Positions 7,576-24,545 of a stretch of DNA of 35,727 bases are shown here, piece after piece. The stretch comes from Actinomycetes bacterium (GTDB lineage: Bacteria > Actinomycetota > Acidimicrobiia > Acidimicrobiales > Acidimicrobiaceae): contig JAKAQR010000028.1 of the NCBI GenBank assembly GCA_021819725.1, positions 1-35,727 on the forward strand, read 5' to 3'. Position 1 is the first letter of the stretch. Each line of letters starts with the position of its first letter. The notes beneath the pieces are model-generated. The model saw only the letters and a program-made list of their open reading frames with translations, was not told where the DNA came from and did no database searches. Position numbers and translations under genes: made by a program.

Positions 7576-7609
7576 GAACCGGACTTGCGACTTCCACCGC
7601 ATCCGGCTC
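7576..7609 (-). ncRNA. Group II intron domain V
   Basis: This is the 34-base catalytic hairpin of the intron. It has outer strands GAGCCGGA and TCCGGTTC, the inner GTGGAAGTCGCA region and an AGC triad at the base, close to the universal domain V consensus. It lies 22 bases past the stop codon of the reverse transcriptase, the normal position. Confidence 0.9.
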
Positions 7610-9674: not shown

Positions 9675-10418
9675 CTTCACCACATGGAATGGATCGAGAC
9701 AGATTTGGGCGTTAGGTGCCTTCTCACGGAAGGCCTTGGCAAAAGCTGGGCCGAGGTCCAAAGTGGTGCGCCTTGATCTTGGCGGTTCGCTCTTTGCCCA
9801 GCTCATTAAAGAATTCATCGAGGCTCTTGGCCTTCTTCCCCTCTGCCTGCGTAGACGATCTTGCCCGTCTCGTGGTTGGTAACAAGCGTGAGGTAATTAT
9901 GGTGCTTGCGATAACTGATCTCATCAACTCCGACGACGAAGAGGTCATCAAGACGATTGGGGTTGAGCTCCTCGGCGACCACTCGTTCACAGATTGTCCC
10001 TACCGTGCGCCATGCGACTCGGAGCAGTTTCGTAACCGTGGTCCCATTGAGTCCAATACTGGCATCTTGGCGGTTGCCCAAGCCACGAGGTGCTCAAAGT
10101 CCCTCGTGAAGCGAGACTCCCCAACAGGTCGGGCAAAGGGTACTGCCTCGGTGATGACTCCATGGTTGGGACACCGGAGCCGCCTTGAGTTGGCACGACA
10201 GCCACGTCTGGTGAGCCCCCATGTCGAGGTGTCGCCATCGCGAGTACATGCGTTCTCGTGTCATAACAGAACCGGGCCACATAGGAGCACTTCGGGCACA
10301 CGAGGCTCGACCGAGTGAGCCTGAGTTTTATCAGCAGTTCGTGTGGACGAACTAAAACCTCTACGACAGTGACACCACGAAGGCCTAGCATCTGCTTAAC
10401 TAGAGAGGTAGCGCGCAT
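9675..10418 (-). pseudogene. ISL3 transposase, N-terminal exon (multiple frameshifts)
   Basis: The upstream transposase exon starts at ATG 10418 with AAAGGAGT upstream. The family match runs MRATSLVKQMLGLRG, CPKCSYVARFCYDTRTH (zinc-binding head), YSRWRHLDMG, RLRCPNHGVITEAVPFARP, TTVTKLLRVAWRTVG, FVVGVDEISYRKHHNYLTLV (first catalytic Asp) and NAQICLDPFHVVK (second Asp), ending at the intron. The match changes frame near 10247, 10182, 10083, 9845 and 9757. Amino-acid identity to the family stays high between the breaks, so the decay is recent or artefactual. Confidence 0.85.
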
Positions 10419-10550
10419 GGTTCTGAACTCCTTTTTGATGCGTTGTTAACACCAAATTTAGAGCTCAGAAACCGTGCGCGTTCCTTATGCGGCTATTTCA
10501 GCCCTAATTACCCCCACTGAACTGGGACTACGACTCAGATCCTGGTGAAA

Positions 10551-10577
10551 TTCATCCACATGAATGTCAGGAGAGCC
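10551..10577 (-). repeat. ISL3 terminal inverted repeat, right
   Basis: This is the reverse complement of 6965-6991 over all 27 bases. The transposase start lies 133 bases inside. Confidence 0.92.
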
Positions 10578-10585
10578 CGGAATTT
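10578..10585. repeat. 8-bp target-site duplication, right copy
   Basis: CGGAATTT matches 6957-6964 exactly. Confidence 0.9.
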
Positions 10586-11189
10586 GTTGGACGCTGTTGC
10601 AGGTGGTATTCGCGAGAACTGGTCTAACGGGAACAGATGCCTCTCGGCGGGGGCACCAAGGGGCAACCTGATTAAAGTAGAGCCAGTCGGGCCCTGGCAC
10701 CCCTTCGACTGCCAGAATTCAGATTGCTTCCGATTTTGATGCATGGGACCGGTTGAGTTTCGTGTTCTACGGAGGTGGATGACGCCTACTGCCCTCGCTT
10801 GAGCTGGGGAATGGGAGTTGCCCCGCTTTTTCTTGGGTTGTTTCGCTCTGCTGATGGGATCGGTTCGCGCTGCAATTCGAGTGGGTATCACTTTGGCAAG
10901 AGGTTTTGGTCGGTCGGGCTCAACGTGTGTGATCATTGCTTCTCGTCGCCTCGTGTGGCGAGGACAATGGATATTCAAGTTTGAAAGGAGAGCTGCTTTT
11001 CATCAGGCGAGCTTAGATCGGCAATTGCGACAGCGGCGGGTGGCCTCTTCTATTGGTTTAGATCTCCCTTGGATCCGGTTTGGTATAACTCCGATTGCGA
11101 TCGTCACAGCTTCTACGAGCTGGAATATGGGACGTTGCGGCACGGCCTTCAGGCAGATGACGTGGCGGATTTGGCGACTGTGTTCGGAC
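10586..11189. other. Intergenic stretch between ISL3 and the large minus-strand operon
   Basis: No supported gene was found. Overlapping open frames on both strands (about 10535-10978 minus and 10818-11486 plus) have no recognisable motifs, and the second runs antisense into the radical SAM gene. The last part is the 3' end region of the operon. No clear terminator hairpin with a T tract was seen. Confidence 0.4.
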
Positions 11190-12989
11190 TCATACGGCAC
11201 AGCGATAGGGTCTCGGCAGACTCCCGTCGTCAAGTCTGGCGGCGAGAAAACGTTGAGTAACCAGACGTTTGCCGTTTTGGAGTGTCGAGTCAGGAGGTGC
11301 AAGCACCATGTCCGGGCTCGTGCGTTGGTCGGCACCAGCCGGGTGCCAGTACAGGCCATCTTCGGCAACCGTGAGTTCTGGAACCGTAGAGACGTCAGAG
11401 ATCTCGAGGCCCGAGGTCGAATGACCTCGTTGAAGAAGTGGTCGGACCAGGAAGTTGGTGGCTGGCACTCCTGCCCCAACGAGTAGGCGCTCCGCGTCGT
11501 TCACTTCATGTTCGTTTTCAGGCGTTGCCGTCATGGCCACACGAAGCGTCAAGCCCAGGCTGGTGAGACGATGGATACCCTCCATCGTTCGCGCCCAGCT
11601 CCCCCTCCCACGATGGAAATCGTGAGTCTCAGCGTGGGCGCCATCGAGGGATGTTTGGATCACGAGATTCGGATTGCCAGCAAACTCTCGAAGCTTTTCA
11701 AAGCGCGCGCCTCGGACAATCGTAGCGTTCGTGAGCAGAACGGTTGGCAACACTGCGGTGCTATAACGGAGAAGCTCCGTGAGATCGGCACGCAGGAGGG
11801 GCTCTCCTCCAGTGAGGTAGATCTCTTCGAAGCTCTCTGATTGCGCCTCGTCGACTATTTCGTGGAATCGATCAATCGAAAGTGCGCGGGGAAGGGCGCG
11901 CGGAGAGGACCCGACCGCACAGTAGTCACAAGCGAGATTGCAGTGAAAGTTCGTATAGATCCATAGTCGACGTGGGAAGTACGGGCTACCAAAGAGTGGA
12001 ACGACAGGTAGCTCATCTACGATGGATTCTGGACGAGAAGAGACTCCGATACGCGGAGTGTGTGTCGGATTGTCTTCATCGCTCCAACTTCCCCCAGTCG
12101 GTGTGAAAGACTCTAGCAATGAGGCACGATACAGGTGGTATTTCCCTTGCGAGCGCTCAATCGGGGGTAATACTTCAATACAGGTCGTCCACCATCCGGT
12201 CTCGATCGTTGACACAAAGAGCTCAGGAATTCCGGCTTTGCGCATCGAGACGGACTGGGCTTGCCAATCGTAGGGAAGTTCGACAAGCGTTGCCTTAGCG
12301 ACACCATCAGTTACTTCGATGACCGCGTACCAAACTTCCTGGCGGCCGTTGTTAGCAGGTTTGCCGAGGACGCCAACGTTGACTACTAGTGTTTGTCCAA
12401 AGTGTCGTTGCCACGGCAGGCCAGAATGGGTACAGCAGATGACTCGGGCCCCGCTGGCGTCGATTCGGCGCTGATGCTCCTGATCGGACAGGGATTCCCA
12501 CCAAAAGTCGTTGATCGCCAAGGTTGATCCGTGGACAAGATGGATGTCACACCCCCCAAGGTCGAATCTCTGTTCTGTGGGCAAGGTTCTCATCCACGAT
12601 GCAAAATCGGGCGTGGTGTGTGTTCGCGTGTAGTCGTAAATAAGGTTTGCGTAGCGATTATCAGTGGGATCCCGGTAGCCACATCCACAGTCGGCGTCTC
12701 CACGAGCAATCGCGACGTCATAGTTGCCCGCTATGCACTGGACACCTCCTGCCTTCAGAAGGGGCCAGAGTTCATTGATTTCTGCGCCAAAGCCACCGAG
12801 ATCACCTAGGCAGTACAGCTGATCGCAACCTCGCTGATTGGCGTCGGCAATGAAAGCCGAGAGCGCGTAGGGATTCGCATATGGTCCTCCGCAGACGGCA
12901 ACGCGGTAAGAGTTGGACTTCTCTCGGGGTACGAGCTGACGAGTAGTATCCAAAGTGTTAGCCTTCAAATCAGAGCTCTGATGGTTCAT
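11190..12989 (-). CDS. Metallophosphoesterase-like / radical SAM fusion protein
   Basis: A 599-residue two-domain protein. Residues about 25-240 resemble calcineurin-type phosphoesterases of the YfcE class: LGDLGGFG (62-68), GNYD (88-91), LVHGS and CTHSG. The first metal motif, normally D-x-H in ISDIHANPYAL, reads CGGPYANPYAL, so two metal ligands are missing and phosphoesterase activity is doubtful. Residues about 340-560 are a radical SAM domain with Cys350, Cys354 and Cys357 (CNLACDYC) for the 4Fe-4S cluster, then LTGGEPLL. Start: ATG 12989, with GAAAGG upstream; it overlaps the transporter gene by 20 bases. As last gene of the operon it probably modifies the same metabolite as its neighbours. 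Its reaction is unknown. Confidence 0.85.
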   Translation of the reverse strand: MNHQSSDLKANTLDTTRQLVPREKSNSYRVAVCGGPYANPYALSAFIADANQRGCDQLYCLGDLGGFGAEINELWPLLKAGGVQCIAGNYDVAIARGDADCGCGYRDPTDNRYANLIYDYTRTHTTPDFASWMRTLPTEQRFDLGGCDIHLVHGSTLAINDFWWESLSDQEHQRRIDASGARVICCTHSGLPWQRHFGQTLVVNVGVLGKPANNGRQEVWYAVIEVTDGVAKATLVELPYDWQAQSVSMRKAGIPELFVSTIETGWWTTCIEVLPPIERSQGKYHLYRASLLESFTPTGGSWSDEDNPTHTPRIGVSSRPESIVDELPVVPLFGSPYFPRRLWIYTNFHCNLACDYCAVGSSPRALPRALSIDRFHEIVDEAQSESFEEIYLTGGEPLLRADLTELLRYSTAVLPTVLLTNATIVRGARFEKLREFAGNPNLVIQTSLDGAHAETHDFHRGRGSWARTMEGIHRLTSLGLTLRVAMTATPENEHEVNDAERLLVGAGVPATNFLVRPLLQRGHSTSGLEISDVSTVPELTVAEDGLYWHPAGADQRTSPDMVLAPPDSTLQNGKRLVTQRFLAARLDDGSLPRPYRCAV

Positions 12990-14412
12990 GGTCACCTTTC
13001 TTAAACGTTGAACCTGAGACCTGGTTCACCACTTCCTCAAGAGATCGGCGTGATGGCTCGATCCCTCCAAGTAGGGAGTAGGCCACGATGCCAAGGAACC
13101 CGAGGAGCCAGAACCCTACCACCAATGAGTAGGAGGCAGTCGTTCCAATCTCGACTGCCAGGACCGGAAGGTAGAGCGTGCCGATGATGGCCCCACAGCG
13201 CCCGATGGCAACCGACGTTCCAACCCCGGCGGCACGGAGATGCGTAGGGAACAATTCCGTGAAAGTCGGGTACGCGGAGGTCCAAGCGGCGGTGCCGGCC
13301 GCATTGGCTACGATAAAAGCTGCTGTAACGAGATGAGCATCGCGGCTCGACGTGGCGAGTGCGAGAAGAATGACACCTACGGCGGCCAAGAGATAGGTAA
13401 TAGCGACCATCAGGAGGTGTCCAACCCTGTCGAATGCTTGGGCCATGATGAGTCCGCCGATTAGACCTCCTAGGTTCCCTAGGATATAGAACAGAGGCAT
13501 CGAACGATCCGAGATGTGGACCTGGTGAAGGACCACCACTGACAGCAGTGCGAAGATGCCGTAATACCCAAAGGCTTCCGAGAGGTCGAGCGTGGCACCG
13601 AGCACGAGTCTCCAGCGGTAGCAAGTGAGAAGTTCACGGAGCGCACCGAGCTGATTCGGTGCCCGGAGTTGGTCGATGTCGAGGTTTTGGTGTAGTGGTA
13701 GTGGTGCCGATCCACCGCATGATGCTTCGAAACTACGTAGGACTTGTTGCGCTTCGACTGTGCGACCTTGGGACACGAGCCATCGTGGAGACTCGGGGAT
13801 GCGCCGCCGGAACAGGAGGACCAACAATGCTAGCGCACCTCCGAAGATGAAAAGATATCTCCACGAGGTAGCCGCGGCAATCGCAAAAGTATCGAGCACC
13901 AAGAACGCTAGTAGGCCCGCAGCGATTGCTCCCGCTGGCCAGAAGTTCATGACTATGGCGTTTGCCTTCCCTCTGACTCTGGCTGGTATGAACTCGGCGA
14001 TCGCAGCGTTGACGATGGCATACTCCGCCCCAACCCCAAGAGCTGCAAGAAAGCGGAGTCCATAGACTGCCGTCAGATCTGGGCTGAGTCCTGTAAGGAC
14101 GGTAAAGCCTGCATACCAAAGCAAGGTCCAGAGAAAGAGTCGACGGCGACCGAACCGGTCCGCGAGACGCCCGCCGAGTAACGCACCGAACAGGATGCCT
14201 CCAAGCCACACAGCGAGCACTGCGTCCTGTTCAAAGACGGTCGCATGGAAATAAGTACCAAGCGGGCCGATGGCGTTCGAGAACATTTGAACCTCGAAGG
14301 AATCGAAAAGCCACCCAGCCCCGAGGGCTATCAAAATCGTGGTGTGCATCGGGCTCCAGGCCAGGCGGTCGAGCCGAGCTCCGGTCTCTTGCGGCGTCAG
14401 TCGTGTTGCCAC
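12970..14412 (-). CDS. MFS transporter (metabolite:H+ symporter type)
   Basis: A 480-residue, 12-helix transporter of the major facilitator superfamily. Helix 1 (ILIALGAGWLFDSFEVQMF) with an Asp is typical of the aromatic acid/sugar symporter branches. The loop 2-3 signature is GGRLADRFGRRRLF, the loop after helix 6 has PESPRWLVSQGR, and the second half repeats the signature as AQAFDRVGHL. The GTG start has GGAGG five bases upstream. It overlaps the glycosyltransferase gene by 16 bases and the radical SAM fusion by 20. In this operon it is a good candidate to export the final product or import its precursor; the sequence alone does not give direction or substrate. Confidence 0.88.
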   Translation of the reverse strand: MATRLTPQETGARLDRLAWSPMHTTILIALGAGWLFDSFEVQMFSNAIGPLGTYFHATVFEQDAVLAVWLGGILFGALLGGRLADRFGRRRLFLWTLLWYAGFTVLTGLSPDLTAVYGLRFLAALGVGAEYAIVNAAIAEFIPARVRGKANAIVMNFWPAGAIAAGLLAFLVLDTFAIAAATSWRYLFIFGGALALLVLLFRRRIPESPRWLVSQGRTVEAQQVLRSFEASCGGSAPLPLHQNLDIDQLRAPNQLGALRELLTCYRWRLVLGATLDLSEAFGYYGIFALLSVVVLHQVHISDRSMPLFYILGNLGGLIGGLIMAQAFDRVGHLLMVAITYLLAAVGVILLALATSSRDAHLVTAAFIVANAAGTAAWTSAYPTFTELFPTHLRAAGVGTSVAIGRCGAIIGTLYLPVLAVEIGTTASYSLVVGFWLLGFLGIVAYSLLGGIEPSRRSLEEVVNQVSGSTFKKGDHEPSEL

Positions 14413-15311
14413 AGGTCCCTCCTCACCGGGTCAGCCTGTTCGGTTGTTGGGTGCTCATGATCCCGATTCTGTTCAATAACGGTTCGACCGAAGTTATTCT
14501 GAGAATGGTCATGCCGCTCTTGGATGTCGATGCTCAACGTAGGTTGGGTTACCTTTCGACTTCGTTTCTTTGTTGGAATCAGCGAGGTCCAGAACGGTCC
14601 ACGCTGATACCAGCGGGCGATGTTAGTCGGCTGAACTCCCAGGAAGTAGCAACCCTTGAGGAGCTGCATGAAGACAATCATCGACCAGGTGCCATGTTCG
14701 AGAAATCGGCGCGAGGAGGCGATGGATACAGCCGGAAGTACGACGAGCCTGCCCTGGCGAGTTAGTCGTCGAGAGAACTCAAGATCCTCCATAATTGGAA
14801 GCTCTGGGAAACCACCCAATTGCTCGAACACGGAACGGCGTACAAAGAGTGCCTGATCGCCGAATATCTGATGAAGATATCGTGCTCGTCGTGTCGAGCT
14901 CCATGCAAGGTAATCAAGACCTCGCGTGTGATAATCGAATTCTAACGCGAGCCCTCCTCCGATAATATCGGGACTACTCAGGGCTTCGCGCAGCTGATCG
15001 AAGGCATTGGGATCAATCCAACAATCGGCGTGAATGAACCATAGCACTGGTGCTGAGGCAGCTTGGGCACCACAGTTCATCTGGTGCGCACGGCCTGGGG
15101 GAGAGTTGAGAACGCGAGCTTTTTGCGCTGCAATGGTGGTGGTTGAATCTGTCGACCCACCATCGACGACGATAAGCTCGGCCCCCAGACAGATCTGGTG
15201 TAGGTAGTTGAGGAGTGCCCCAATGGTTTTCTCCTCGTTCAGGGTGGGAATAATGATGGAGATCACCGGAGACGACCTGCGCTCTGTGCCCTGGACATCA
15301 CAAACCGACAT
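14397..15311 (-). CDS. TIGR04283-type glycosyltransferase (arsenosugar-locus family)
   Basis: A 304-residue family-2 glycosyltransferase. The GT-A fold opens with ISIIIPTLNEEKTIGALL, followed by LIVVDGGSTDSTTTIA, GRAHQMNCGAQAA and the metal/sugar-nucleotide motif FIHADC, then a late MEDLEFSRRL acceptor-side motif. This pattern matches the group annotated as arsenosugar biosynthesis glycosyltransferase TIGR04283, originally seen beside radical SAM/selenodomain proteins. After about residue 235 a basic, His-rich tail of about 65 residues is not part of the fold. ATG 15311 has GAGGG five bases upstream. It overlaps the TIGR04282-type gene by 14 bases, the usual pairing of the two transferases. 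Confidence 0.9.
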   Translation of the reverse strand: MSVCDVQGTERRSSPVISIIIPTLNEEKTIGALLNYLHQICLGAELIVVDGGSTDSTTTIAAQKARVLNSPPGRAHQMNCGAQAASAPVLWFIHADCWIDPNAFDQLREALSSPDIIGGGLALEFDYHTRGLDYLAWSSTRRARYLHQIFGDQALFVRRSVFEQLGGFPELPIMEDLEFSRRLTRQGRLVVLPAVSIASSRRFLEHGTWSMIVFMQLLKGCYFLGVQPTNIARWYQRGPFWTSLIPTKKRSRKVTQPTLSIDIQERHDHSQNNFGRTVIEQNRDHEHPTTEQADPVRRDLWQHD

Positions 15312-15987
15312 GAGTCCCTCGTGATATCGGCTTCGCTTGACATAACAGGGATCGAATCTCTGGCGATAGGGTTGGTGCCTTGATCAGTTCGAGAGCATCG
15401 TTAGGGGTGTCGAGGTCTCGCAATGGAGCAAGAAGCCCAACGGAGAGTCTGAAGCTTTTTGCTGCTGCTACAGTCGCTTCGAGAACGTCTGGTCCTCCCC
15501 AAAGGGTGGGGTCAATGTCGAAGACTGAAAGCTCTAACTGGTTCATCGCGATCAGGTAATAACCACCGTCGAGCGCCGGGCCAATCACGACGTCGAAACC
15601 AGAACTCAGCATCGATGAGGCATGGCGCAAGTGCTGCCCAGTTATGAGAGGGATGTCGGTACCGATGATCATCAGCGGTCCAGATGTTCGTCGGTAGACA
15701 TCGTCTGCTGCAGCCATGAGGCGTTTTCCAAGGTGGTCGCCTCGCTGGGCGATGAGATGAATTTGAGGGTCCAACAAGGTGGAGAAGGTGTGACCGGACT
15801 CCGGGGGGTCGAAGCAAAGGTACGTGTTCATCGGGGCAACCTCTCGCGCAAGCTGCACGGCGTTGTGAATCAACGCCTGCTGGAGCTCAACGAGCTGGAG
15901 GTCATTGAGTATTGGGGCAAGGCGAGTTTTTACTTGTCCAGGCCGAGGGGTTTTTGCCATGATCGCAATAGCTGGAGCAGCGCTCAT
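15298..15987 (-). CDS. TIGR04282-type glycosyltransferase (arsenosugar-locus family)
   Basis: A 229-residue nucleotidyl/glycosyltransferase-like protein (DUF2064 group). The signature MAKTPRPGQVKTRLAP near residue 10 resembles the nucleotide-binding loop of MobA/CofC-type enzymes. GDHLGKRL, the acidic IIGTDIPLI and GPALDGGYYLIAM follow, all diagnostic of the TIGR04282 family paired with TIGR04283 transferases. The reaction has not been settled biochemically as far as I know; transfer of an activated sugar or polyol group in arsenosugar formation is inferred from context. It starts at ATG 15987 in an ATGA overlap with the upstream phosphorylase gene. Confidence 0.9.
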   Translation of the reverse strand: MSAAPAIAIMAKTPRPGQVKTRLAPILNDLQLVELQQALIHNAVQLAREVAPMNTYLCFDPPESGHTFSTLLDPQIHLIAQRGDHLGKRLMAAADDVYRRTSGPLMIIGTDIPLITGQHLRHASSMLSSGFDVVIGPALDGGYYLIAMNQLELSVFDIDPTLWGGPDVLEATVAAAKSFRLSVGLLAPLRDLDTPNDALELIKAPTLSPEIRSLLCQAKPISRGTHVGL

Positions 15988-16775
15988 GATTCCACCCGAA
16001 AGACCTCCCCAGCTGGTTGGGGTGTGTGGGCGTTCACGAGGGGTAGTGCAGCACGGATCAGTTCGGCGAAGCGGTCTGCACTCACCCGCATCCGTGCTAC
16101 TAGTGCTTCGATCGGTTCGGGTACGTTGGCGACACCGTTGGCGTAATCGGTGACGTATCCAACGAGGGCGTAGGGCAATTGGGCCTCTCCAGCGAGAACT
16201 GTCTCTGGTCCGCCAGTCTGGCTGATCGCAGTCACGCCACAGGCCGCTAAGGCACTGATTTCTGTTCGAGAGTTGAACCGTGGGCCATCCACATGTCCGT
16301 AGACCCCATTTGTCAAAATCTTTGATTCGAATTCTTTGCCCGCGTTGATGAGTGAGTTTCGAAGATCATCAGAGAAAGGGTGGTCGAAGATCCAGTGCCC
16401 GCGATCTTTCTGTCCCGGAGTGTCAAACCAAGTACATAAGCTGCCGTCTGGCATTCGATTTGACCCGAAGTAAAGGTCGTCAAAGACGATCAGCGAACCG
16501 GGCTCGATTGACGGTTGAACAGCTCCACACGCAGTGCAGCCGATGACGGCGCTCACTCCAAGATCGATGAGGGCGGAGAGGTTAGCCTTATGGTTTACCT
16601 GATGCGAGAGTCGCTCGTGTGATGGCCCGTGGCGTGATACGTGTGCTACCACTGTGTCTCCTACCGTACCAAGTGTCACGTTGACACTACCAAAGGGTGT
16701 TGTAGCATGATGAATCTGACGGTCGATGAGGCCTGGCCACTGGTCGATTCCTGAACCTGAGATGATACCGATCAT
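15984..16775 (-). CDS. MTA phosphorylase-like (PNP family 2) enzyme
   Basis: A 263-residue member of the 5'-methylthioadenosine/purine nucleoside phosphorylase family, which splits a 5'-substituted nucleoside with phosphate into base and sugar-1-phosphate. Visible motifs are GIISGSGI (phosphate loop), VSRHGPSHERLSHQVNHKANL, GCTACGAV, DGPRFNSRTEI and SQTGGPETVLAGEA (substrate pocket). VTDYANG replaces the VTDYDCW of animal MTAP, so one of the two Asp positions near the purine is changed. Between a radical SAM enzyme and two sugar transferases, the natural guess is removal of adenine from a 5'-deoxyadenosyl product rather than from MTA itself. The start overlaps the radical SAM stop (ATGA). Confidence 0.88.
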   Translation of the reverse strand: MIGIISGSGIDQWPGLIDRQIHHATTPFGSVNVTLGTVGDTVVAHVSRHGPSHERLSHQVNHKANLSALIDLGVSAVIGCTACGAVQPSIEPGSLIVFDDLYFGSNRMPDGSLCTWFDTPGQKDRGHWIFDHPFSDDLRNSLINAGKEFESKILTNGVYGHVDGPRFNSRTEISALAACGVTAISQTGGPETVLAGEAQLPYALVGYVTDYANGVANVPEPIEALVARMRVSADRFAELIRAALPLVNAHTPQPAGEVFRVES

Positions 16776-18235
16776 GGTCGCACCTTTACTGTTGCCGAGA
16801 GGTCAGAATCGGCGGATCTCCGTCTTGGAAGCGGTAGGAGCTTTACCAGCTCTCTGTTTTCTGCTGGATCGAGAACGCTGTGTTGGACGCATGCTGGCAC
16901 AATTTCCCCAGTCTCGGGGTGGGCCATTGCGTAGAAGCAGGACTGGAGTCTCTCTTGAGTCTCCAGAATGTGTGGGTCGGTGCTCATCTCCCCTCGCTTG
17001 AGCATTTCCCAGGCAGGCTGGACGTCTTCAGCATTCATGAAGCGATGCATGACGAACGTCATTGGACGCACCTCGTGCTGCAGGAGGGCCCGAACTACGA
17101 CGAGTACTCCGCCAGATTGATGGATCCGGAGCCATAGCCAACGAATGCCAACGAGTACCAAGTGTGGGTGGCAGACAACGACTCTTCCAAGTCTTGGAAG
17201 TAGCAGAGAGATTGGCGCTCCCCAATGAACGCCACCGAGGTATCGGTAAAATTCATCCCGAGTTTGTAGATCATCGGCATCGTCTTCGTCGAGAACGGGA
17301 AACCAGCGCTTACCGAGATAGTACCCGAAAGCTGACCGATTGCAGCGTTCATCGCCAGTTTGAAACACTCGAAACGGCAGTCGAACTCCCGCGCCGGCTT
17401 CAATTTGAGTCCAGACTGAATCGGCGTTCAAGCGAGTGTAGTCCTCTTTCCAACGACGTGGGTTGCCGACAAAGGCTGCCGGTTGGAACGACATCATGTT
17501 AAAGCCCATCGAGTTGCATTCACGGATCAAATCAGGAATCTCGTCGACATTGCCTGGGGTCACCGTCATATTGTGTGCGAGGAAGTACTTCACCCCATAC
17601 TCTCGGCGAAGTCTCTTGAACAGATCGCAAAAGGCCTGACGAAAGGAATTGAGCTCAGTTTCAGAAGTCGGAATACGAAGGCCCCGCCGGCCTCGCATGG
17701 TCGTATCAAAGTGCCCCGCAAATGAAAGTCGTTTGAAACGAGGTTGACCATCACTTCCAATCGCTAGCGCCTTGAGATAGGGGTAGTCCATGTCGCCATG
17801 GGTAAAGCTCATTGGCTCTCGGCCGTGTTCACGCATGATCTGCAACGCCTTGGCGTGATCATTCGGCTCAAGGAGGGTAACTTCGCCTCCGATGAGTTGA
17901 GCGTGAGCATGGGGGCCGCGCTCCGAAGCAAGGTGGGCCATCTGACGCTCGATTTCGGCGAGTGTATGAGGACCGTCGACTCGCACTTGGTTTGCCTCGG
18001 CTGAGTGATAGCACGGAGTACACGCAAAATTGCAGCGCGGGAATACGCCGTGGGTCCCCTCGCAACCAACAGCCATTCGGCCCAGAGTTTGAGAATCCGT
18101 GCGAATATGACCTGGCAGCGCAGCCCACCTAGCGGCGAGTGCCTCTCTAGTGTCGTCGGCTATCGGCCGAGTTGATCGCTCTACCTCTCTGAACCAGCTT
18201 TTCATTCGGGTCCATTGATGTGTCAGAACTCCCAT
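16772..18235 (-). CDS. Radical SAM enzyme, uncharacterised family
   Basis: A 487-residue radical SAM protein. The cluster cysteines are 68, 72 and 75 (CNFACTPCYH), followed by IGGEVTLL, the GGE motif that holds the SAM amino group. Other Cys-bearing blocks are GDERCNRSAFGYYLG in the middle and ACVQHSVLDPAEN near the C-terminus, which could bind an extra cluster or the substrate. A hydrophobic, Arg-flanked segment lies near 340-375. ATG 18235 is chosen because AGAAGG precedes it; ATG 18253 would add six residues without a site. It lacks the look of canonical ArsS as I know it, yet sits where that enzyme would be expected. It overlaps the phosphorylase gene by four bases. Confidence 0.85.
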   Translation of the reverse strand: MGVLTHQWTRMKSWFREVERSTRPIADDTREALAARWAALPGHIRTDSQTLGRMAVGCEGTHGVFPRCNFACTPCYHSAEANQVRVDGPHTLAEIERQMAHLASERGPHAHAQLIGGEVTLLEPNDHAKALQIMREHGREPMSFTHGDMDYPYLKALAIGSDGQPRFKRLSFAGHFDTTMRGRRGLRIPTSETELNSFRQAFCDLFKRLRREYGVKYFLAHNMTVTPGNVDEIPDLIRECNSMGFNMMSFQPAAFVGNPRRWKEDYTRLNADSVWTQIEAGAGVRLPFRVFQTGDERCNRSAFGYYLGKRWFPVLDEDDADDLQTRDEFYRYLGGVHWGAPISLLLPRLGRVVVCHPHLVLVGIRWLWLRIHQSGGVLVVVRALLQHEVRPMTFVMHRFMNAEDVQPAWEMLKRGEMSTDPHILETQERLQSCFYAMAHPETGEIVPACVQHSVLDPAENRELVKLLPLPRRRSADSDLSATVKVRP

Positions 18236-18253
18236 AACACCCTTCTCTCCCAT

Positions 18254-18475
18254 GTTGCTCGGTTGTCTCTGCGACCACAGGGCTTAAGTATCGGAAAACG
18301 TAGCAGCAGACTCTCGGGTTGCCCAAGGAGTGGAACCCCCTTGGTTTCGCGAAACTTCCAGGCATTTCTCGTGGTGCCTGCAATTTTGATGGTAAGTTGA
18401 TCGGCAGGCGCTCCGATAGAGTATTCGCGGGTGGCGTGCTCCTTGAGCGGGTTTTGCAGATGATGGATCGCAACG
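18254..18475 (-). other. Gap in the operon holding an unexplained open frame
   Basis: This is the only sizeable gap in the operon. One minus-strand frame stays open from inside the reductase gene through the whole gap to a stop in the radical SAM leader (about 18230). It reads VEQPFELRIAHNVAIHHLQ, KEHATREYSIGAPADQL and GVPLLGQPESLLLRFPIL, with a composition like real protein, but no ATG, GTG or TTG start is visible. It may be a lost small gene, a former extension, or chance. Confidence 0.35.
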
Positions 18476-19939
18476 TTATGAGCGATTCGTAGCTCGAAAG
18501 GCTGTTCTACCGTTGATCTCCATAAAAAACTGAGCTGCTGCCTGGCGAGTACCAGCTGACCAGGAAGGATACGCGTGAACGGTCTGTGCTAAGCGACCAG
18601 TGAACGCACCCAATCGCAATGCAAGAGCGACCTCGTGAATCATCTCTCCGGCCCTCGGCGCTACGATGGTCGCCCCCAGTAGTCGTCCTCCTCCAGCGTT
18701 TCGGAGAAACGTCCGTGGGCCGGCGATCAACTTGATGAAACCTTCGGTGCGGTTGGCGGTTATGGCTCGGTCTACCTCAGACATCGGGAGATAGGCCACT
18801 CTGCCTCCAACGACCACGGCTTCTGTTTCGGTTAATCCTACGCGAGCGACCTCGGGATCGCTAAAGACGACCGAAGGGATAGATGAGGTCTTGAAGGACC
18901 GCCTACCGAGCCTTCCCAAAGGGTTGGTAATGTTGTGGATTGCGACTCTTCCCATTTCGTCAGCAGCGTGGGTCAGTAACAGACGACCGTTGATGTCTCC
19001 GACCGCGTAGACATCTTTGTTGGTGGTTGCAAGACTGCTATCGGTCTTTACAAATCCGCGAGCATCGACGGCAACTCCAGCCGCTTCCAACTCGAGCCCA
19101 TCGGTTCTGGGATGCCGTCCCGTCGCAACGAGCAAGGCCATGGCTCGCAGCACTTCTTTGCCCGCCGACATCCTCAGTTCAATAGGACCATCCGGCATGG
19201 TCTGTTGAATGCTCTCGAGATGCTGGCCAAGGTGTAGATGAATTCCCGCATCGGAGAAGCATCGCCCCAAAACTGCACTCACCTCCGGCTCTTCTCGGGC
19301 TAACAGTCGGGACTCAGCCTCAATGAGGTGGACATCGACACCGAAGCGTCGAAAAGCTTGAGCCATCTCGCACCCAATCGCTCCTCCGCCAAGAATTGCA
19401 ATGGAAGGTGGCAATGCATTCAGCGCGAAAACCGTCTCATTCGTGAGAAAGGGAACTGAACGAAGTCCTGGTACCAAAGGAATGGAAGGCTGAGATCCAG
19501 TGGCGATCACGATTTTCTGGGCTCGGAGTCTTTGCGATCCTACGACAATCTCGTGTGATCCACAGAAACGAGCAAACCCTTCGACCACCTCGACACCTTC
19601 TTTATGAAGCACAATAGCATCCTCGCCTCCCGCGATCTGGGCTATGGTCTCCTGGATTCTGAACGCTGCTTGGCGAAAAGTGTCACCGCGTGACGCCGCC
19701 TCTATGAGGGTTTTCGATGGAACACAACCGGTAAAGGTGCAGTCTCCCCCAAGGGGTGCATCGGAGACGAGAACGGTTTTGAGTCCACGAGCCACGCCAG
19801 CGCGTGCCGCTGCTAGCCCTCCTGCGCCTCCGCCGATAACCGCGAGATCACACACTCTGGCGACCGTTCGACCACTACTTCTCGAGGGTTGTGACTCAGG
19901 AGGCGACCTGACGTCTTCACCGCGAGCTACATCAGTCAT
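18476..19939 (-). CDS. FAD/NAD(P)-dependent disulfide reductase-like enzyme (MerA/Lpd family)
   Basis: A 487-residue flavoprotein of the pyridine nucleotide-disulfide oxidoreductase family. FAD binding is at 34-45 (VIGGGAGGLAAA), the redox disulfide is Cys67/Cys72 in GGDCTFTGCVPSK, the NAD(P) site is AILGGGAIGCEMA, and a second FAD motif is YAVGDINGRLLLTHAA. In dihydrolipoamide dehydrogenase the C-terminal motif is HAHPTLxE with a catalytic His-Glu pair. Here it is HAYPSWSA (from 455), so both are lost (Tyr and Ala), as in branches that do not reduce lipoamide, such as mercuric reductases. It could reduce a metalloid or a thiol adduct in the pathway. It overlaps the anti-sigma gene by eight bases. 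Confidence 0.88.
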   Translation of the reverse strand: MTDVARGEDVRSPPESQPSRSSGRTVARVCDLAVIGGGAGGLAAARAGVARGLKTVLVSDAPLGGDCTFTGCVPSKTLIEAASRGDTFRQAAFRIQETIAQIAGGEDAIVLHKEGVEVVEGFARFCGSHEIVVGSQRLRAQKIVIATGSQPSIPLVPGLRSVPFLTNETVFALNALPPSIAILGGGAIGCEMAQAFRRFGVDVHLIEAESRLLAREEPEVSAVLGRCFSDAGIHLHLGQHLESIQQTMPDGPIELRMSAGKEVLRAMALLVATGRHPRTDGLELEAAGVAVDARGFVKTDSSLATTNKDVYAVGDINGRLLLTHAADEMGRVAIHNITNPLGRLGRRSFKTSSIPSVVFSDPEVARVGLTETEAVVVGGRVAYLPMSEVDRAITANRTEGFIKLIAGPRTFLRNAGGGRLLGATIVAPRAGEMIHEVALALRLGAFTGRLAQTVHAYPSWSAGTRQAAAQFFMEINGRTAFRATNRS

Positions 19940-20222
19940 TGGACTCGTCTTGGCTGGACGCGCCTTCTCGGATCAGCTGATCACTGAAGTTGCGAAGGCG
20001 TTGTACCGTTTGGGGGTCGAGTAACATCTCCTGCTTACTCAAGGCGGTCTTGATCTCCTGGTAGACCTCAGCTTCCAGGCCGCAACGCCGACAATCGTCC
20101 AGATGCCGGGCTACCTGATCAGCCTTTGCATCAGCGAGTACACCGTCAAGATAGTCCTGTAGGACTCTCATTGTTGTAAAGCAGTAGCGTCTCTCGGCAA
20201 TCATCTTCCAAGGCTTGCTCAT
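19932..20222 (-). CDS. Zinc-finger (HC2) anti-sigma factor
   Basis: A small cytoplasmic protein of 96 residues with the zinc-binding motif H-x3-C-x2-C (HLDDCRRC, residues about 40-47), as in ZAS-type anti-sigma factors of the RsrA/ChrR class that hold an ECF sigma factor. No membrane segment follows, so it senses an internal signal; Cys-zinc sites of this type respond to thiol oxidation or metals. The ATG at 20222 overlaps the sigma stop (TGATG) behind AGGAGG, so the two are translated together. A GTG one codon earlier is also possible. Release by oxidants or thiophilic metalloids is inference. Confidence 0.88.
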   Translation of the reverse strand: MSKPWKMIAERRYCFTTMRVLQDYLDGVLADAKADQVARHLDDCRRCGLEAEVYQEIKTALSKQEMLLDPQTVQRLRNFSDQLIREGASSQDESND

Positions 20223-20794
20223 CACATCCTCCTCTTCGGTGCAAGGCCTGCAATTGTCAGCCGTTTGCGAATTCGCATTCTCGCACGGTGGAGCCGACTC
20301 ATAACTGTCCCAATTGGAATCCCAATGATGGCTGCTGTTTCGGCATAGGTGAGTCCATCAATATCAACAAGCTCAATGATTTGACGGTCCTGCTCGCTGA
20401 GCGCAGCTATGCAACGCATGATCTCGGCATCGAATTCTCTAGCGATGACCACCTCTTCGGTCGAGAGAGTCCCGCCACGAGGATCCTCAGCCTCAACTCG
20501 CGATGCCTGGTCAGGGTCGCGAAGCAATTGCGGGCGTCTTCGACGATGCCGTTTTATCTCAGTATTCCGCATGATCGTAAACAACCATGCACGAGGATGT
20601 GCTCCGTCGAAACGTTCAATCGCCTGGTAGGCGCTCAATAGCGTGAGCTGGACCAAGTCTTCAGCGTCGGCTGGATTGCGCGTGATTGAGAGCGCTACAC
20701 GACCAAGAACTTCGATCTCGGGCACTACATAACGAGCAAACGCATAATGTGGGTGTCCACACGCCGTAGTGCTTTCATCAGATTCGAGATCCAT
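20222..20794 (-). CDS. ECF-type RNA polymerase sigma factor
   Basis: A 190-residue sigma-70 family factor with only regions 2 and 4. Region 2 is ADAEDLVQLTLLSAYQAI and HPRAWLFTIMRNTEIKRHRRR; region 4 is LSEQDRQIIELVDIDGLTYAETAAIIGIPIGTVMSRLHRARMR in two overlapping parts, with a clear helix-turn-helix. It heads the nine-gene operon, directly coupled to its anti-sigma gene, so it most likely transcribes its own operon on a signal. ATG 20794 has GGGAGG about 10 bases upstream; the frame is open to 20911, but those residues are outside the fold. An inverted repeat (20823-20836) lies just upstream. Confidence 0.92.
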   Translation of the reverse strand: MDLESDESTTACGHPHYAFARYVVPEIEVLGRVALSITRNPADAEDLVQLTLLSAYQAIERFDGAHPRAWLFTIMRNTEIKRHRRRRPQLLRDPDQASRVEAEDPRGGTLSTEEVVIAREFDAEIMRCIAALSEQDRQIIELVDIDGLTYAETAAIIGIPIGTVMSRLHRARMRIRKRLTIAGLAPKRRM

Positions 20795-20822
20795 GATGAC
20801 GTAACCTCCCAGGTGAACATAG

Positions 20823-20836
20823 TATTCCTTGGAATA
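20823..20836. promoter_or_regulatory. Inverted repeat TATTCC-TT-GGAATA upstream of the sigma gene
   Basis: Perfect 6-bp arms with a 2-base spacer lie 29-42 bases before the sigma-factor start. Position and symmetry fit an operator or part of the promoter region. No regulator is identified. Confidence 0.4.
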
Positions 20837-21341
20837 AAGAAGAACCTTTGGGAATTTCTTGGCCGTGCTAGAACGTGTTGTTATCCGGAGTCTGACTTGC
20901 GGGTTGATCAAGGCGTAAAGGCGTAGTCAGGGATCCTAGCGGCTTGGCCGGGGAGTGATTGTGGTTCCCGGCTCCGTACTTGTCGCCGGACAAGTTGGCG
21001 AGACTATTATTGGGGTCGCGGGTCAGGAACCGTGCTCTTTGATGCCCGTGTGGGCAGTGAGCTATCGAAGGGAGGGCTGGTAAGTCTGTCTGGAATGCGT
21101 GATATCAAGTCTCTGCTGCACCACTGGCTAGTGGAATCGGCTGGTGGCACCGTTGGTAAGGGTTTGAGCCTTTCGTCTAGTGTCGGATGCATGCGACGCC
21201 GCAAGGTCGTGTTGGGTGACCGGGGATCCGCTTGTCATACTTCACGTCGGGCGCTTGGGCGACAGCGAGATCTATTGTGGGGTCGCTCACACGGCGCTAA
21301 GGAACGCCTCAGCGCTCTTGAACCGTTTGGCGTTTTGGCCC
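20837..21341. other. Divergent intergenic region
   Basis: About 500 bases separate the sigma operon and the methyltransferase. Two overlapping plus-strand frames are open (from GTG 21032 and from GTG 21180), but neither has a ribosome-binding site or recognisable motif. The second simply runs into the methyltransferase. Promoters for both directions should lie here. Confidence 0.45.
20978..20995. promoter_or_regulatory. Perfect hairpin in the divergent promoter region
   Basis: ACTTGTC-GCCG-GACAAGT is a 7-bp perfect inverted repeat with a 4-base centre. It lies between the operon and the divergent methyltransferase, and could be an operator shared by both directions. Confidence 0.4.
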
Positions 21342-22136
21342 GTGCCTAATTCGAACCGATTTCAGAGCCATCGATCTTGGAGTGGGTATCTCGATGAGTT
21401 TCACCAGCAGCACCCCGGTATCACCGAGCAGGTTCTCGGCTCGGCAACTGCCGGTGACGGGGTTACGGCTTACCAGTGGCTTGTGTCCTCGATTGTACTT
21501 GGAGATGAACAGTTGGCTCTTGATCTGGCTTGCGGGAGTGGTCCCGTCCAGGCAGCCGTGAAAGGATTCCATTGGATTGGGTTAGATCGTTCCCAGAGCG
21601 AACTCGCGGAAGCGGCCAGATTGTTGTCGAGTTCACTCGTGCGTGGCGATGCTGACCATCAGCCATTCTCCAGTGGAACGTTCGATTTGTTGACGTGTTC
21701 CATGGCCTTGATGCTCTTCAACCCAGTGGAGGCGGTGTTAAGTGAGATTTCTCGGGTCATCAAGGTTGGTGGCATTTTTGCACTCTTGCTGCCAGGGTCG
21801 TTTCCATTGAGTGCCCGCGACCGCATCCGATATGCCCGTCTACTAGCGGCGCTGCACGAGACCCGCCCTGCTTATCCAAACGGTATTCATCTCGGCCGAC
21901 TCCGATCTCATCTAGAGCGACATCATTTCGTTGTCCTTGTTGATGAACGCAGGTGTTTTCGCTACCAGGTGACGACCGAGCGCCATGCTCATACCTTTGT
22001 TGATTCGCTCTACGTGCCATCTATTACCCCCAAGCGTCTGAAGCGTTCCTATGAGGTGGCTATTGGCTGGACCGGTTCTACGATCGGAGTTCCGCTACGC
22101 AGAGTGGTATGTCAGAGGGTGGGAAGTCCCGAATGA
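21342..22136 (+). CDS. Class I SAM-dependent methyltransferase
   Basis: A 264-residue Rossmann-fold methyltransferase. Motif I is LALDLACGSGPVQ (about 58-70), the acidic residue that binds the SAM ribose is in WIGLDRS, motif post-II is VRGDADHQPFSSGTFDLLTC, and VIKVGGIFALLLPG is motif III. The leading SWSGYLDEFHQQHPGITE block resembles methyltransferases found near TIGR04282/04283 loci (from memory). It shows no Cys triad typical of ArsM arsenite methyltransferases, so the target is unknown. Start uncertain: the frame opens at GTG 21180, but 54 leading residues look non-conserved, so GTG 21342 is preferred; neither has a Shine-Dalgarno. It is read away from the sigma operon. Confidence 0.8.
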   Translation: MPNSNRFQSHRSWSGYLDEFHQQHPGITEQVLGSATAGDGVTAYQWLVSSIVLGDEQLALDLACGSGPVQAAVKGFHWIGLDRSQSELAEAARLLSSSLVRGDADHQPFSSGTFDLLTCSMALMLFNPVEAVLSEISRVIKVGGIFALLLPGSFPLSARDRIRYARLLAALHETRPAYPNGIHLGRLRSHLERHHFVVLVDERRCFRYQVTTERHAHTFVDSLYVPSITPKRLKRSYEVAIGWTGSTIGVPLRRVVCQRVGSPE

Positions 22137-22324
22137 CAAACATAACCCTGCCGCCTTCGTTGTTGTCACGGGACCCGATGCTGCCGAGGAATCCAACAAC
22201 GTTTTACATAGGTGTTGAATATCCTCAGGTCATGGATTTGGAGACGGGTTTGCGGAAGACGTCGGAAAGCTTATTACCGGCTTTGCTGTCAATGGTGTTG
22301 GCCAGCCTGATTGGGATACACTAG
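22133..22324 (+). CDS. Small hypothetical protein coupled to the methyltransferase
   Basis: A 63-residue frame starting at ATG 22133 in an ATGA overlap with the methyltransferase stop; a second ATG in frame at 22109 has GGGTGG nearby. The product ends in a hydrophobic helix (SLLPALLSMVLASLIGIH). No family recognised. The coupling supports a real gene, but it could be the 5' remnant of a longer one, since the sequence after it has no coding character. Confidence 0.45.
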   Translation: MTNITLPPSLLSRDPMLPRNPTTFYIGVEYPQVMDLETGLRKTSESLLPALLSMVLASLIGIH

Positions 22325-22649
22325 TGCTTAAATATTGATCGCCAATCGTCGTGAACTCGGCCCACGAACGGTTGTGAATCCGAGGATACTCGGCATGGTT
22401 ACATCGAACATCCGAAGCAACTGAGCAATGTCGTTACGATATTGCTGGAGCACATAGTTGAGGCGAATTGCTCCTCTGACTCAGTCCATATGGAGTACTC
22501 GATGTTCCTCGTTAGGTGGTTAATTCCCGTCTTGTCACCACACAAATCCTTCTTGGAAATTCTATAGAAGATTTATTGTACCTATCAATGACCTCCAGGA
22601 GCTGGCGCCATCCGGACTCCAGGAGTTAGGGTTGATCAGTTTCCGGGTC
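22325..22649. other. AT-richer intergenic stretch
   Basis: I see no gene, repeat or clear signal here. Base composition is lower in GC than in the neighbouring genes. Confidence 0.4.
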
Positions 22650-23120
22650 ATGAGTGATTAGCCCCGGGTTCTTGGAGGTCGATAGCGACGCCTAACAGAA
22701 CCGTACCACCCTTCTGGTATCTTCTGTGAAGGCTGGTTCCCTCTTCCCTGAAGTAGGCCCAGTTGACTTCGACCGCGCCGGTGAGGTAGTCGCGGTCTGG
22801 AGGTACGAGCGCTGAGCGAACCCGGTGCCATCGTGCACATCCAATCTGACGGGGGCTCAGCTCAACCGCTCGCTGCATGCTGAGAACCGGGATGCCGTCC
22901 TCCCAGCTCGAATAAGGTCTGCTGTAGCTGCTACGTGCCTTAAACAGTCTGCATGACCAGGCGCTTGGATTCTGGTATCGCGGAGAGACAAGACAGGATG
23001 GCTAACACAGTCGAGCCAGATTGTCCACGTCGGTGGCAGAGTACGACTTGATCTTGCCACCGAATGCCGGTTGCGTAACCCGTCGCGGTGATGTTGGTCC
23101 CCTCCGGGTACGAGGGGCTT
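22650..23120 (-). pseudogene. IS1595-like transposase remnant
   Basis: On the minus strand, 22878 down to 22650 reads AVELSPRQIGCARWHRVRS, then DRDYLTGAVEVNWAYF and KGGTVLLGVAIDLQEPG. This follows the ISXO2-like transposase domain of IS1595 elements (VS-x-TAWR-LHR-R, then GxVEVDE-Y, then VAVE). The catalytic Asp-Glu pair of VEVDE has become VEVNW, so it is dead. Upstream to about 23120 the frame is broken by stops and shifts, and the zinc-ribbon head is no longer recognisable. Confidence 0.6.
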
Positions 23121-23360
23121 TCCAGTGGATACTCCGTGGGTTGAGCAATACCTTTGTATATCTTCGAGACCCAAAGCGACGGTGACCTGCTGCGTGCTGT
23201 GCACTTCAGACCAATTTGAAAGACCGAAGAAATTGGAATGGTTACGCTCTCGAACGGGTTTCTCGTCCAATCTCATTCGTGAGGGAAGTGGAATTTGCAG
23301 TCCATTTAGGATGATCTACTTCGTGCGGTCATGTCTTTGTTCAACAAGGAGAGTATATTT

Positions 23361-24173
23361 ATGAAAAACGTTACACAACCAACTTCCCCTATTAGTCTTT
23401 TGACAGTGGGTAGGCTACTTTGGAAACCCGGAATTATTGCAGGGGTTATTGGAGGAATGATGCTTGCCATTGTGATGATGATCACTATGGGAGTAGAAGG
23501 ATCAGGCTTTCTTAGTCCACTAAATCTCGGTCTTGCGTCCTTTGTCTACACGATCGTTCCTCCTATATCAATGTTTCCTGCTCTCATGGGGGCTATGGGC
23601 ATTAAGCTTCCTAGCTCAGTCATGTCTCAACTCACCCCCGCACTACGTAGTGGCCATATTAGTAGTGCGATGGCGCACCATCTCGGATTGATGCTCATCG
23701 CTATGCACGTGCCCGCGGCGAAAGTTCAGATGATCGGTGAATTGATGACGGGACACGCCACAAACTCCACTGTCACCAGTATCCTGTCTAGCCTGAGTCT
23801 CTCGGCTCGCAATGCAGTTATGAGTGCTATGCCCGTAACAGCTGGGCACCTCGTAACCGGGGCTATGTTGCATCTGGTTATGTCAGCAATCTTTGGAGTT
23901 GCTATTTTCGGAGTGATCGCACTGGCTAGCTGGTATAGGCTTCCCGGGATGCGAAGTATATTCGGCATCATCGGTGCTGGGATTCTCGGTGGTGCGGTGA
24001 TATATGTTGTAAATATGTATATCGTTCTTCCTGCGATCAATCCGATGATGGGGTTGGTGCCTCCGCTCGCATTCTTCATTGCTCATCTTGTCTTTGGTAT
24101 GGTAGTTGGACTAGGTGCTGCTGTAACATTCCGCTCGCGAAAGTTGAAAGGCATTTTGCAAAACGCAGGATGA
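23361..24173 (+). CDS. Polytopic membrane protein of unknown function
   Basis: A 270-residue hydrophobic protein with about six membrane segments: near 22-42 (GIIAGVIGGMMLAIVMMITMG), 50-70, 108-122, 160-190 (GHLVTGAMLHLVMSAIFGVA), 205-225 and 235-260. It is unusually rich in Met and Gly, and has several His-Met pairs in or near helices (MAHHLGLMLIAMHVP, MTGHA, MLHLVM). That could mean metal binding, but no family was recognised. ATG 23361 has AAGGAGAG eight bases upstream, a strong site, so the upstream in-frame start at 23331 is rejected. It is flanked by non-coding DNA, with no operon. Confidence 0.7.
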   Translation: MKNVTQPTSPISLLTVGRLLWKPGIIAGVIGGMMLAIVMMITMGVEGSGFLSPLNLGLASFVYTIVPPISMFPALMGAMGIKLPSSVMSQLTPALRSGHISSAMAHHLGLMLIAMHVPAAKVQMIGELMTGHATNSTVTSILSSLSLSARNAVMSAMPVTAGHLVTGAMLHLVMSAIFGVAIFGVIALASWYRLPGMRSIFGIIGAGILGGAVIYVVNMYIVLPAINPMMGLVPPLAFFIAHLVFGMVVGLGAAVTFRSRKLKGILQNAG

Positions 24174-24545
24174 GAAACGGTGTTGCGCTCTAGTCGCCGC
24201 ACTGTTGCAAGTTACTTTGTGAAGTTGATGATCAATGATACGGCATCGTTGGATATTCGGGATTATACGGATGCAGGGAAGTAATTGGACGCTCGTGGAC
24301 CACGCAGTGGTGATGGAAGAGGTCAGGCATTGCCTCCGGTCTGGTTTGTGGGGGAGAGTGAAGTTCGCTCCCTGTCGCACCGATCAAGCATCCGGGTCTA
24401 ACGCTTGTGTCCTTCAAGCGATGAGAAGATCCCTTTATGTCGGGTCTATGAGATGGAGGAGTCGCTGCGGGTGAGTATCGCTGCGGAACCGGCCACTAAC
24501 GAGGTGAATCAGATACGGTGTCATTCATAGCGGGAGGTGTTCTGC
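24174..24545. other. Intergenic stretch
   Basis: No supported gene. Short frames on both strands lack ribosome-binding sites and motifs. Confidence 0.4.

Follow-up and report, generated by a model that had tools for sequence, protein, structure and literature searches.

The stretch analysed here, 35,727 nucleotides of an Acidimicrobiaceae bacterium (assembly GCA_021819725.1, contig JAKAQR010000028.1; hereafter the window), carries a nine-gene operon that probably encodes an arsenosugar-type pathway in which the canonical radical S-adenosylmethionine (rSAM) enzyme ArsS has been replaced by an rSAM enzyme from outside the ArsS clade. We favour this reading because two transferases of the operon pass the curated cut-offs of TIGR04282 and TIGR04283, the replacing enzyme is associated with TIGR04283 across genomes, the nucleoside phosphorylase belongs to a clade linked to ArsS, and a closely matching gene set occurs in Burkholderia glumae; the substrate would be arsenic. 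The replacing enzyme is a phosphoesterase-rSAM fusion, here termed FUS, and the second radical SAM enzyme of the operon is termed RSAM2; genomes, loci and contigs are designated by numbers preceded by G, L and C, respectively.

The nine open reading frames (ORFs) occupy 20911 to 11190 on the minus strand, a divergent methyltransferase gene lies at 21180-22136 on the plus strand, and all ten were found where the initial annotation had placed them. Its description of nine overlapping genes held for the genes and their domains and for seven of the eight junctions, which overlap by 4-26 bp; the other junction, between the flavin adenine dinucleotide (FAD) reductase and RSAM2 genes, is a gap of 222 bp. 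The proposed transferases were also recovered, both over the curated cut-offs of families whose names refer to arsenosugar biosynthesis: a CofC-like (DUF2064) TIGR04282 transferase at 15298-15987 (minus strand; 165.5 bits, cut-off 134) and a TIGR04283 family-2 glycosyltransferase at 14397-15311 (minus strand; 235.2 bits, cut-off 182). FUS (11190-12995, minus strand) combines a phosphoesterase-like domain at about residues 29-273 (PF12850, 43.4 bits) with an rSAM domain at about residues 342-601 (PF04055, 80.5 bits). Further upstream on the same strand lie genes for an MTAP-superfamily nucleoside phosphorylase (15984-16775), which scores 165.1 bits against TIGR01694 and thus stays below the 274.85 bits of family membership, and for RSAM2 (16772-18253), with 25.8 bits against PF04055 (gathering score 29.5). 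A major facilitator superfamily (MFS) transporter is encoded at 12970-14412 (minus strand; PF07690, 146 bits). The phosphorylase, the flavoenzyme, the anti-sigma factor and both rSAM proteins reach the cut-off of none of the NCBIfam families listed for them.

The association between FUS and TIGR04283 was assessed in two samples, using a FUS threshold of E 1e-60 and the curated TIGR04283 cut-off. In an even sample of the phylum (396 genomes), FUS occurred in 7 genomes and TIGR04283 in 29, and all seven FUS genomes fell among the 29 (hypergeometric 5e-9, not corrected for relatedness), with a distance below 2 kb in six of them and separate contigs in the seventh (G346). Among 199 genomes of the class of G158, 13 carried FUS, including three already counted (G158, G201, G435), and in each of the ten new ones TIGR04283 lay less than 1 kb from FUS. 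As controls, 18 of 20 listed FUS-negative genomes (of 186) were searched and none had TIGR04283; the two omitted, G102 and G307, were already known to carry it, so that the fair control count is 2/20 rather than 0/18. RSAM2 was found in all ten new FUS genomes and in none of the 18 controls. Pooled, TIGR04283 accompanies FUS in 17/17 genomes, within 2 kb in 16 of them. Of the 29 TIGR04283 genomes of the phylum sample, seven have FUS, four have ArsS over its cut-off, each adjoining the transferase, and 18 lack the two; in no genome do FUS and ArsS occur together. From this pattern of gene replacement we infer that FUS takes the place of ArsS beside TIGR04283. Two of the 18 (G062, G301) have another rSAM gene adjoining TIGR04283, and no rSAM gene was identified in the TIGR04283 stretches from 13 others. 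The neighbourhood survey suggested initially therefore favoured the proposal of a variant organo-metalloid pathway: FUS keeps to TIGR04283 in every FUS genome, and the accompanying gene set matches that of ArsS loci.

The phosphorylase provides a second link to ArsS. In all four ArsS genomes (G094, G195, G388, G415), whose loci resemble the window in having TIGR04283 and a same-clade phosphorylase beside ArsS, the gene directly following ArsS encodes a phosphorylase 42-48% identical to that of the window. In a maximum-likelihood tree of 28 rows, nine FUS-type rows, the four actinobacterial ArsS-linked rows, G141 and G252 formed one clade (support 100/100, branch 3.29); among the FUS-type rows, the contig of L012 ends before the FUS position, and the window and contig C5 of G001 are near-copies. 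Outside this clade fell ten MTAP-like rows of lower similarity, which we labelled housekeeping; five of these come from genomes in which a clade member is present as well. A phosphorylase with at least 49% identity was present in 6/10 new class FUS genomes and in 2/18 controls (G137, G179), and G544 and G583 show the contiguous order TIGR04283, phosphorylase, FUS. As a separate observation, G137 and G179, which lack FUS and TIGR04283, have phosphorylases 50-53% identical to that of the window, suggesting another role or another adenosyl adduct. MTAP-type enzymes accept 5'-deoxyadenosine, and this favours a different explanation, in which the phosphorylase does no more than salvage the 5'-deoxyadenosine that the two rSAM enzymes release and the operon, as a thiol-stress regulon, makes an unrelated redox metabolite such as a low-molecular-weight thiol; the disulfide reductase and the RsrA-type spacing of the anti-sigma factor described below would fit it as well. 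Several genomes, however, have a second, less similar MTAP-like gene and yet keep the distinct, long-branched clade with FUS and ArsS, and the gene set is like that of ArsS loci, so that we judge mere salvage very improbable.

Counterparts in other phyla were sought by a tblastn search of RSAM2 against 72,556 plasmids, which matched 47 records (45 Burkholderia, 1 Cupriavidus and 1 Roseomonas; 26-30% identity in the rows shown). At 116-135 kb of B. glumae plasmid p2_BGR15S, a set nearly the same as that of the window occurs with a canonical ArsS in about 18 kb, comprising DoxX, TVP38/FAD oxidoreductase, zf-HC2, second FAD oxidoreductase, TIGR04282, TIGR04283, MTAP, DUF6969, MFS, zf-HC2, ECF sigma, CcdA and thioredoxin, followed by ArsS, a 339-aa protein, NlpC/P60, RSAM2 homologue and DUF547, together with three further hypothetical genes. 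The two loci thus share TIGR04282, TIGR04283, MTAP, MFS, an FAD reductase, an ECF sigma factor with zf-HC2 and RSAM2, at identities of 44.8% over 451 aa for MFS, 40.9% for TIGR04283, 34.5% for TVP38/FAD, 32.2% for MTAP, 30.9% over 259 aa for RSAM2, 30.6% for TIGR04282 and 27.3% for sigma, the best sigma family being TIGR02947 in the window and TIGR02943 in B. glumae. In Cupriavidus, tblastn located, within 8 kb and in the order given, ArsS, FAD, TIGR04283, TIGR04282, MTAP, RSAM2 and DUF547. The Roseomonas plasmid carries TIGR04282, DUF547, an RSAM2 homologue and PhnD and PhnE genes, together with an unfused rSAM protein (35% identity to the FUS rSAM domain over 161 aa) and a separate CGC phosphoesterase found by the FUS profile at E 9e-44; TIGR04283 and MTAP were not among the annotated genes of that stretch. 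No second rSAM gene was annotated in the stretches read of the plasmid ArsS loci of Thiodictyon, Acinetobacter, Hymenobacter and Pseudanabaena. It follows from the B. glumae, Cupriavidus and Roseomonas sets that much of the gene set recurs across phyla and that the presumed adenosylating rSAM enzyme differs; unlike the ArsS loci, the operon of the window is devoid of ArsS and ArsM, and its rSAM enzyme is of the FUS type, fused to a phosphoesterase-like domain.

That the operon contains no canonical ArsS, as stated in the initial annotation, was borne out by profile searches of both rSAM proteins. FUS matches TIGR04167 with 60.2 bits over profile positions 10-148 of 303, far below the cut-off of 300, and for RSAM2 this family is absent from the listed NCBIfam matches; ArsL is likewise absent from those listed for both proteins (for FUS, the best 25 of 57). 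In an rSAM tree, nine ArsS rows formed one clade (100/100, branch 4.81) with the nine FUS rows outside it, deep joins in this tree being unreliable. Among NCBIfam models, the FUS rSAM domain matches the Rv1681 family NF049973 best, with 254.2 bits over residues 342-599, below the cut-off of 380. Named Streptomyces have homologues that are 60-63% identical in the rSAM part, and a Mycolicibacterium plasmid encodes an rSAM homologue with 44.6% identity to FUS. Judging from the alignment, the phosphoesterase-like domain is devoid of the metal-binding D-x-H motif of active calcineurin-like phosphoesterases, as DVH of 3rqz aligns with GPY in FUS, and has a conserved CGC motif: G37 and Y39 are kept in 43/43 ungapped rows, and C103 and C105 in 45/46. 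With the former motif lost and the latter kept, this domain may therefore bind substrate instead of hydrolysing it. Two plasmid loci with Rv1681-like rSAM genes differ from FUS loci in their acyl-CoA dehydrogenase and PhnD-like neighbours and in rSAM proteins too short for a fusion: L054 (Miltoncostaea), where these genes stand beside a family-2 glycosyltransferase and DUF2064, with selA, selB and selD near, and L053 (Mycolicibacterium), with a deiodinase-like gene near.

In none of 60 relatives (G001, the nearest genome compared, and 59 further) was an ArsS over the cut-off found. The view that canonical ArsM is missing was equally upheld: no ArsM over cut-off was found in G001, where the best NF008823 match reached 55.5 bits (cut-off 263), and no ArsM-like gene was detected by tblastn (E 1e-8) in the G001 loci L027 and L028. 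The divergent methyltransferase, a class-I SAM-dependent enzyme (PF08241; NF045667 50 bits, below 155), was considered as a candidate ArsM and rejected, its best ArsM-type score being 22 bits against a cut-off of 240 and the protein not being among the NF008823 matches of G001; homologues lie close to RSAM2 in L011 and L013-L016. An ArsM over cut-off is lacking in 7/13 FUS/RSAM2 genomes tested, G001 among them, which lends weight to the possibility that the same enzymatic logic operates on another element, FUS adenosylating a selenium, sulfur, antimony or carbon substrate to give a non-arsenic 5-substituted ribose glycoside. FUS-like rSAM enzymes near selA/selB/selD and the deiodinase-like gene on the Miltoncostaea and Mycolicibacterium plasmids, respectively, point in the same direction. 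We nevertheless find another element rather unlikely, considering that the partner genes are those of ArsS loci and that one TIGR04283-linked non-ArsS rSAM enzyme is fused to an ArsM-like domain. This fusion, in G301 (L061:7327-9462, minus strand), has an NF008823 score of 248.8 bits, just below 263, lies beside TIGR04283 and is distant from FUS (29% identity over 169 aa in the rSAM part); it is possibly a third solution to arsenic adenosylation. As an aside, the arsenite-methyltransferase matches of G198, G293 and G425 have one internal TGA each and are possibly selenoproteins.

Several findings weigh against the arsenosugar-type reading. FUS resembles the Rv1681 family (254 bits) more closely than ArsS (60) and stands outside the ArsS clade; the match in G588 covers the rSAM half of FUS alone, in a 311-aa frame; and a 339-aa protein of the B. 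glumae ArsS locus, absent from the multi-query BLASTP table, is weakly like the FUS phosphoesterase (BLASTP 23%, E 6e-5; missed by the profile), with the CGC motif kept. TIGR04282 and TIGR04283 are named arsenosugar families by annotation; two same-class genomes, G102 and G307, carry TIGR04283 without FUS, both FUS and ArsS are missing, at the thresholds used, from 18 of the 29 genomes with TIGR04283, and the sampled genomes are not independent of one another. With regard to the phosphorylase, three proteobacterial ArsS-locus MTAPs fall outside its clade, its gene and that of FUS lie on different contigs in G158, G435, G201 and G346, and the form with at least 49% identity is missing from 4/10 class FUS genomes and present in 2/18 without FUS. 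Finally, domain scans recognised an arsenic gene in none of the ten operon and divergent genes, and since G001 has no ArsM over cut-off, a methylated arsenical would have to be supplied from another source or by an unknown enzyme.

A further question is which of the two rSAM proteins would transfer the adenosyl group. RSAM2 could be the ArsS stand-in, with FUS acting later: its gene runs into the beginning of the phosphorylase gene, which recalls the position of ArsS immediately ahead of the phosphorylase in the four actinobacterial ArsS genomes, and it is present in 14/17 FUS genomes. Three FUS genomes with TIGR04283 and the phosphorylase (G145, G177, G346) nonetheless have no RSAM2 at E 1e-30, six of the ten RSAM2 genomes in the phylum sample are without FUS and TIGR04283, and the RSAM2 homologues of B. 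glumae and Cupriavidus have a canonical ArsS nearby, all of which makes this assignment distinctly improbable. RSAM2 is thus found in loci of both FUS and ArsS gene sets; of its six loci in the named genome collection, five come from Actinomycetes bacterium metagenome-assembled genomes (MAGs) and one from an Acidimicrobiales MAG.

The predicted structure of RSAM2 suggests a tetraether-synthase-like fold, the best match being the tetraether synthase Tes (GDGT-MAS, PDB 7tom; 18% identical where aligned). Against solved structures the sequence profile of RSAM2 gave nothing below E 0.19, whereas comparing folds was informative. Despite this match, RSAM2 scores 25.2 bits against Tes (NF045702, membership above 450) and 25.1 bits against TrsS (NF045646, above 490), and none of the scanned genes of the window was recognised as a tetraether-lipid gene. 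Seven cysteines (64, 74, 78, 81, 304, 439, 455) are invariant in 52/52 alignment rows. A bolder proposal, to which we assign a low probability, is that the operon holds two new rSAM arsenic activities, FUS being an independently evolved adenosyl-arsenic synthase and RSAM2 forming an arsenic-carbon or arsenolipid bond in the place of ArsM; RSAM2, with its tetraether-synthase-like fold, has four further invariant cysteines. The hint of such a replacement comes from 51 loci searched (some overlapping), in which an ArsM-like gene at E 1e-8 occurred in L061, L108 and L110 alone: no RSAM2 homologue was seen in these three (in L108 and L110 by gene annotation), and no RSAM2 locus among the 51 had an adjoining ArsM. 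RSAM2 as a substitute at the level of the genome found no support, given that G435 and G201 carry both, with ArsM elsewhere in the genome, which speaks against strict replacement and leaves the locus-level hint alone. A selenoprotein form of RSAM2 was also considered for G158 and G345, for which the search gave one internal TGA each, and was rejected for these two, since translation places the TGA at the C-terminal end and it therefore reads as a plain stop; the RSAM2 sequences of G583, G476 and G573 have one internal TGA each in the search output.

Returning to the arsenosugar-type reading with FUS in the place of ArsS, the following sequence of events may be proposed. Thiol or arsenical stress would free the ECF sigma factor from its zinc-binding anti-sigma factor of RsrA type, and the operon would be transcribed from the GGAAT-N18-GTT motif, while the FAD disulfide reductase could hold thiols, and hence the arsenical, in the reduced state. 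The rSAM domain of FUS would then join a 5'-deoxyadenosyl radical to a trivalent arsenical, as ArsS does, its phosphoesterase-like domain presumably serving in substrate binding rather than hydrolysis. The MTAP-like phosphorylase, given its ArsS-linked clade, would strip adenine to yield 5-arsino-5-deoxyribose 1-phosphate, the TIGR04282 and TIGR04283 proteins would activate the sugar before passing it to an acceptor, and the MFS transporter could export the product. RSAM2 might perform a second radical modification.

The regulatory genes head the operon. The extracytoplasmic function (ECF) sigma factor (20222-20794, minus strand; Sigma70 r2/r4_2) is encoded in an ORF open to TTG 20911; its start is probably ATG 20794 (190 aa), because the second copy of the gene in G001 begins at the equivalent ATG. 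The general ECF model is the sole cut-off it passes among the families listed, its best NCBIfam match being TIGR02947 SigH_actino (109.9 bits, cut-off 251.55). The zf-HC2 anti-sigma factor (19932-20225, minus strand; PF13490) has Cys15, His41, Cys45 and Cys48 at offsets 0-26-30-33, which we take to be the RsrA positions; the same spacing occurs in L028, L011, L016 and L031, one of which is a near-copy, and in one zf-HC2 protein of B. glumae, and the RsrA score (TIGR03988) is 29.1 bits, below 62.5. The third gene (18476-19939, minus strand) encodes an FAD/NAD(P) disulfide oxidoreductase resembling MerA and lipoamide dehydrogenase (PF07992, PF02852), with a CxxxxC active site; it reaches 350 bits against MerA (TIGR02053; membership above 454), and its translation is without a cysteine at the C-terminal end, where MerA has its hallmark vicinal cysteine pair.

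A SigR-like promoter motif, GGAAT-N18-GTT, lies at 20803-20828 (minus strand), 8 nt before the sigma ATG, and two further copies occur on the plus strand, at 23235-23260, 70 nt before a gene with no Pfam match (23331-24173, plus strand), and at 32004-32029, 37 nt before a GH15/trehalase-like gene (32067-33851, plus strand). Three occurrences in the window compare with 0.88 expected, and 3/100 shuffles reach three. The motif recurs ahead of the sigma gene in L028, L011 and L031, with divergent pairs in L011 and L031; no match was found in L016, which has the sigma and anti-sigma genes, nor in 88/111 loci overall. The gene at 23331-24173 is a possible further member of the regulon. SigR-RsrA is the thiol-stress switch of Streptomyces, which the window resembles in the Cys/His spacing of the anti-sigma factor and in the motif before the sigma gene; unlike it, the pair in the window scores below the RsrA and SigH_actino cut-offs and heads a biosynthetic operon.

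Comparison with G001 (2.9 Mb, 95% complete) indicates that the operon is maintained. Positions 9675-29390 of the window match contig C68 of this genome at 99.9% identity over 19.7 kb, and contig C5 holds a second version, with all nine genes intact, that matches 11003-22752 at 94.6% and 22910-29390 at 91.5%. Between the two operon copies, dN/dS is 0.08-0.28 in 9/9 genes; the nine-gene operon is under selection and is more than a set of chance ORFs. The second copy in G001 could stem from a true duplication or from a sister strain binned together with G001. Contig C1 of G570 has two FUS-TIGR04283-RSAM2 clusters, near 1.27 Mb and 3.36 Mb, and their position on a single contig makes duplication of this locus real at least in G570. 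Just downstream of the operon in the window, a group II intron reverse transcriptase/maturase (PF00078, PF08388) is flanked by two short ORFs (6979-7602, 7632-9065 and 9987-10418, minus strand), the latter resembling fragments of an ISL3-type transposase. The second G001 copy, whose match starts at 11003, stops short of this stretch. Two adjoining genes at 27747-30955 (plus strand) show only MutS domain V (PF00488) in Pfam, unlike a full MutS.

The operon may be set beside the bacterial organoarsenical clusters for arsinothricin (arsQML; PMC8552651) and bisenarsan (bsn; PMC12159101), the former of which is reported to use an rSAM enzyme to form a C-As bond. Domain scans of the operon and the divergent gene recognised neither arsQML nor the key genes of bsn among the ten. 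For actinomycetes, simple methylated arsenicals and bisenarsan are the compounds named in a review (PMC12159101). Searches of the open PMC literature, subscription papers being outside their scope, listed no paper recognised as describing the operon, FUS or RSAM2.

Taken together, searches for arsenosugar capacity based on ArsS would miss this lineage. If FUS does adenosylate arsenic, the formation of the adenosyl-arsenic bond by radical SAM enzymes would have arisen in two separate enzyme clades. The presence of RSAM2 in FUS loci, as well as near ArsS on two plasmids of proteobacteria, suggests that the synthesis of arsenosugars or arsenolipids includes a step not yet described.

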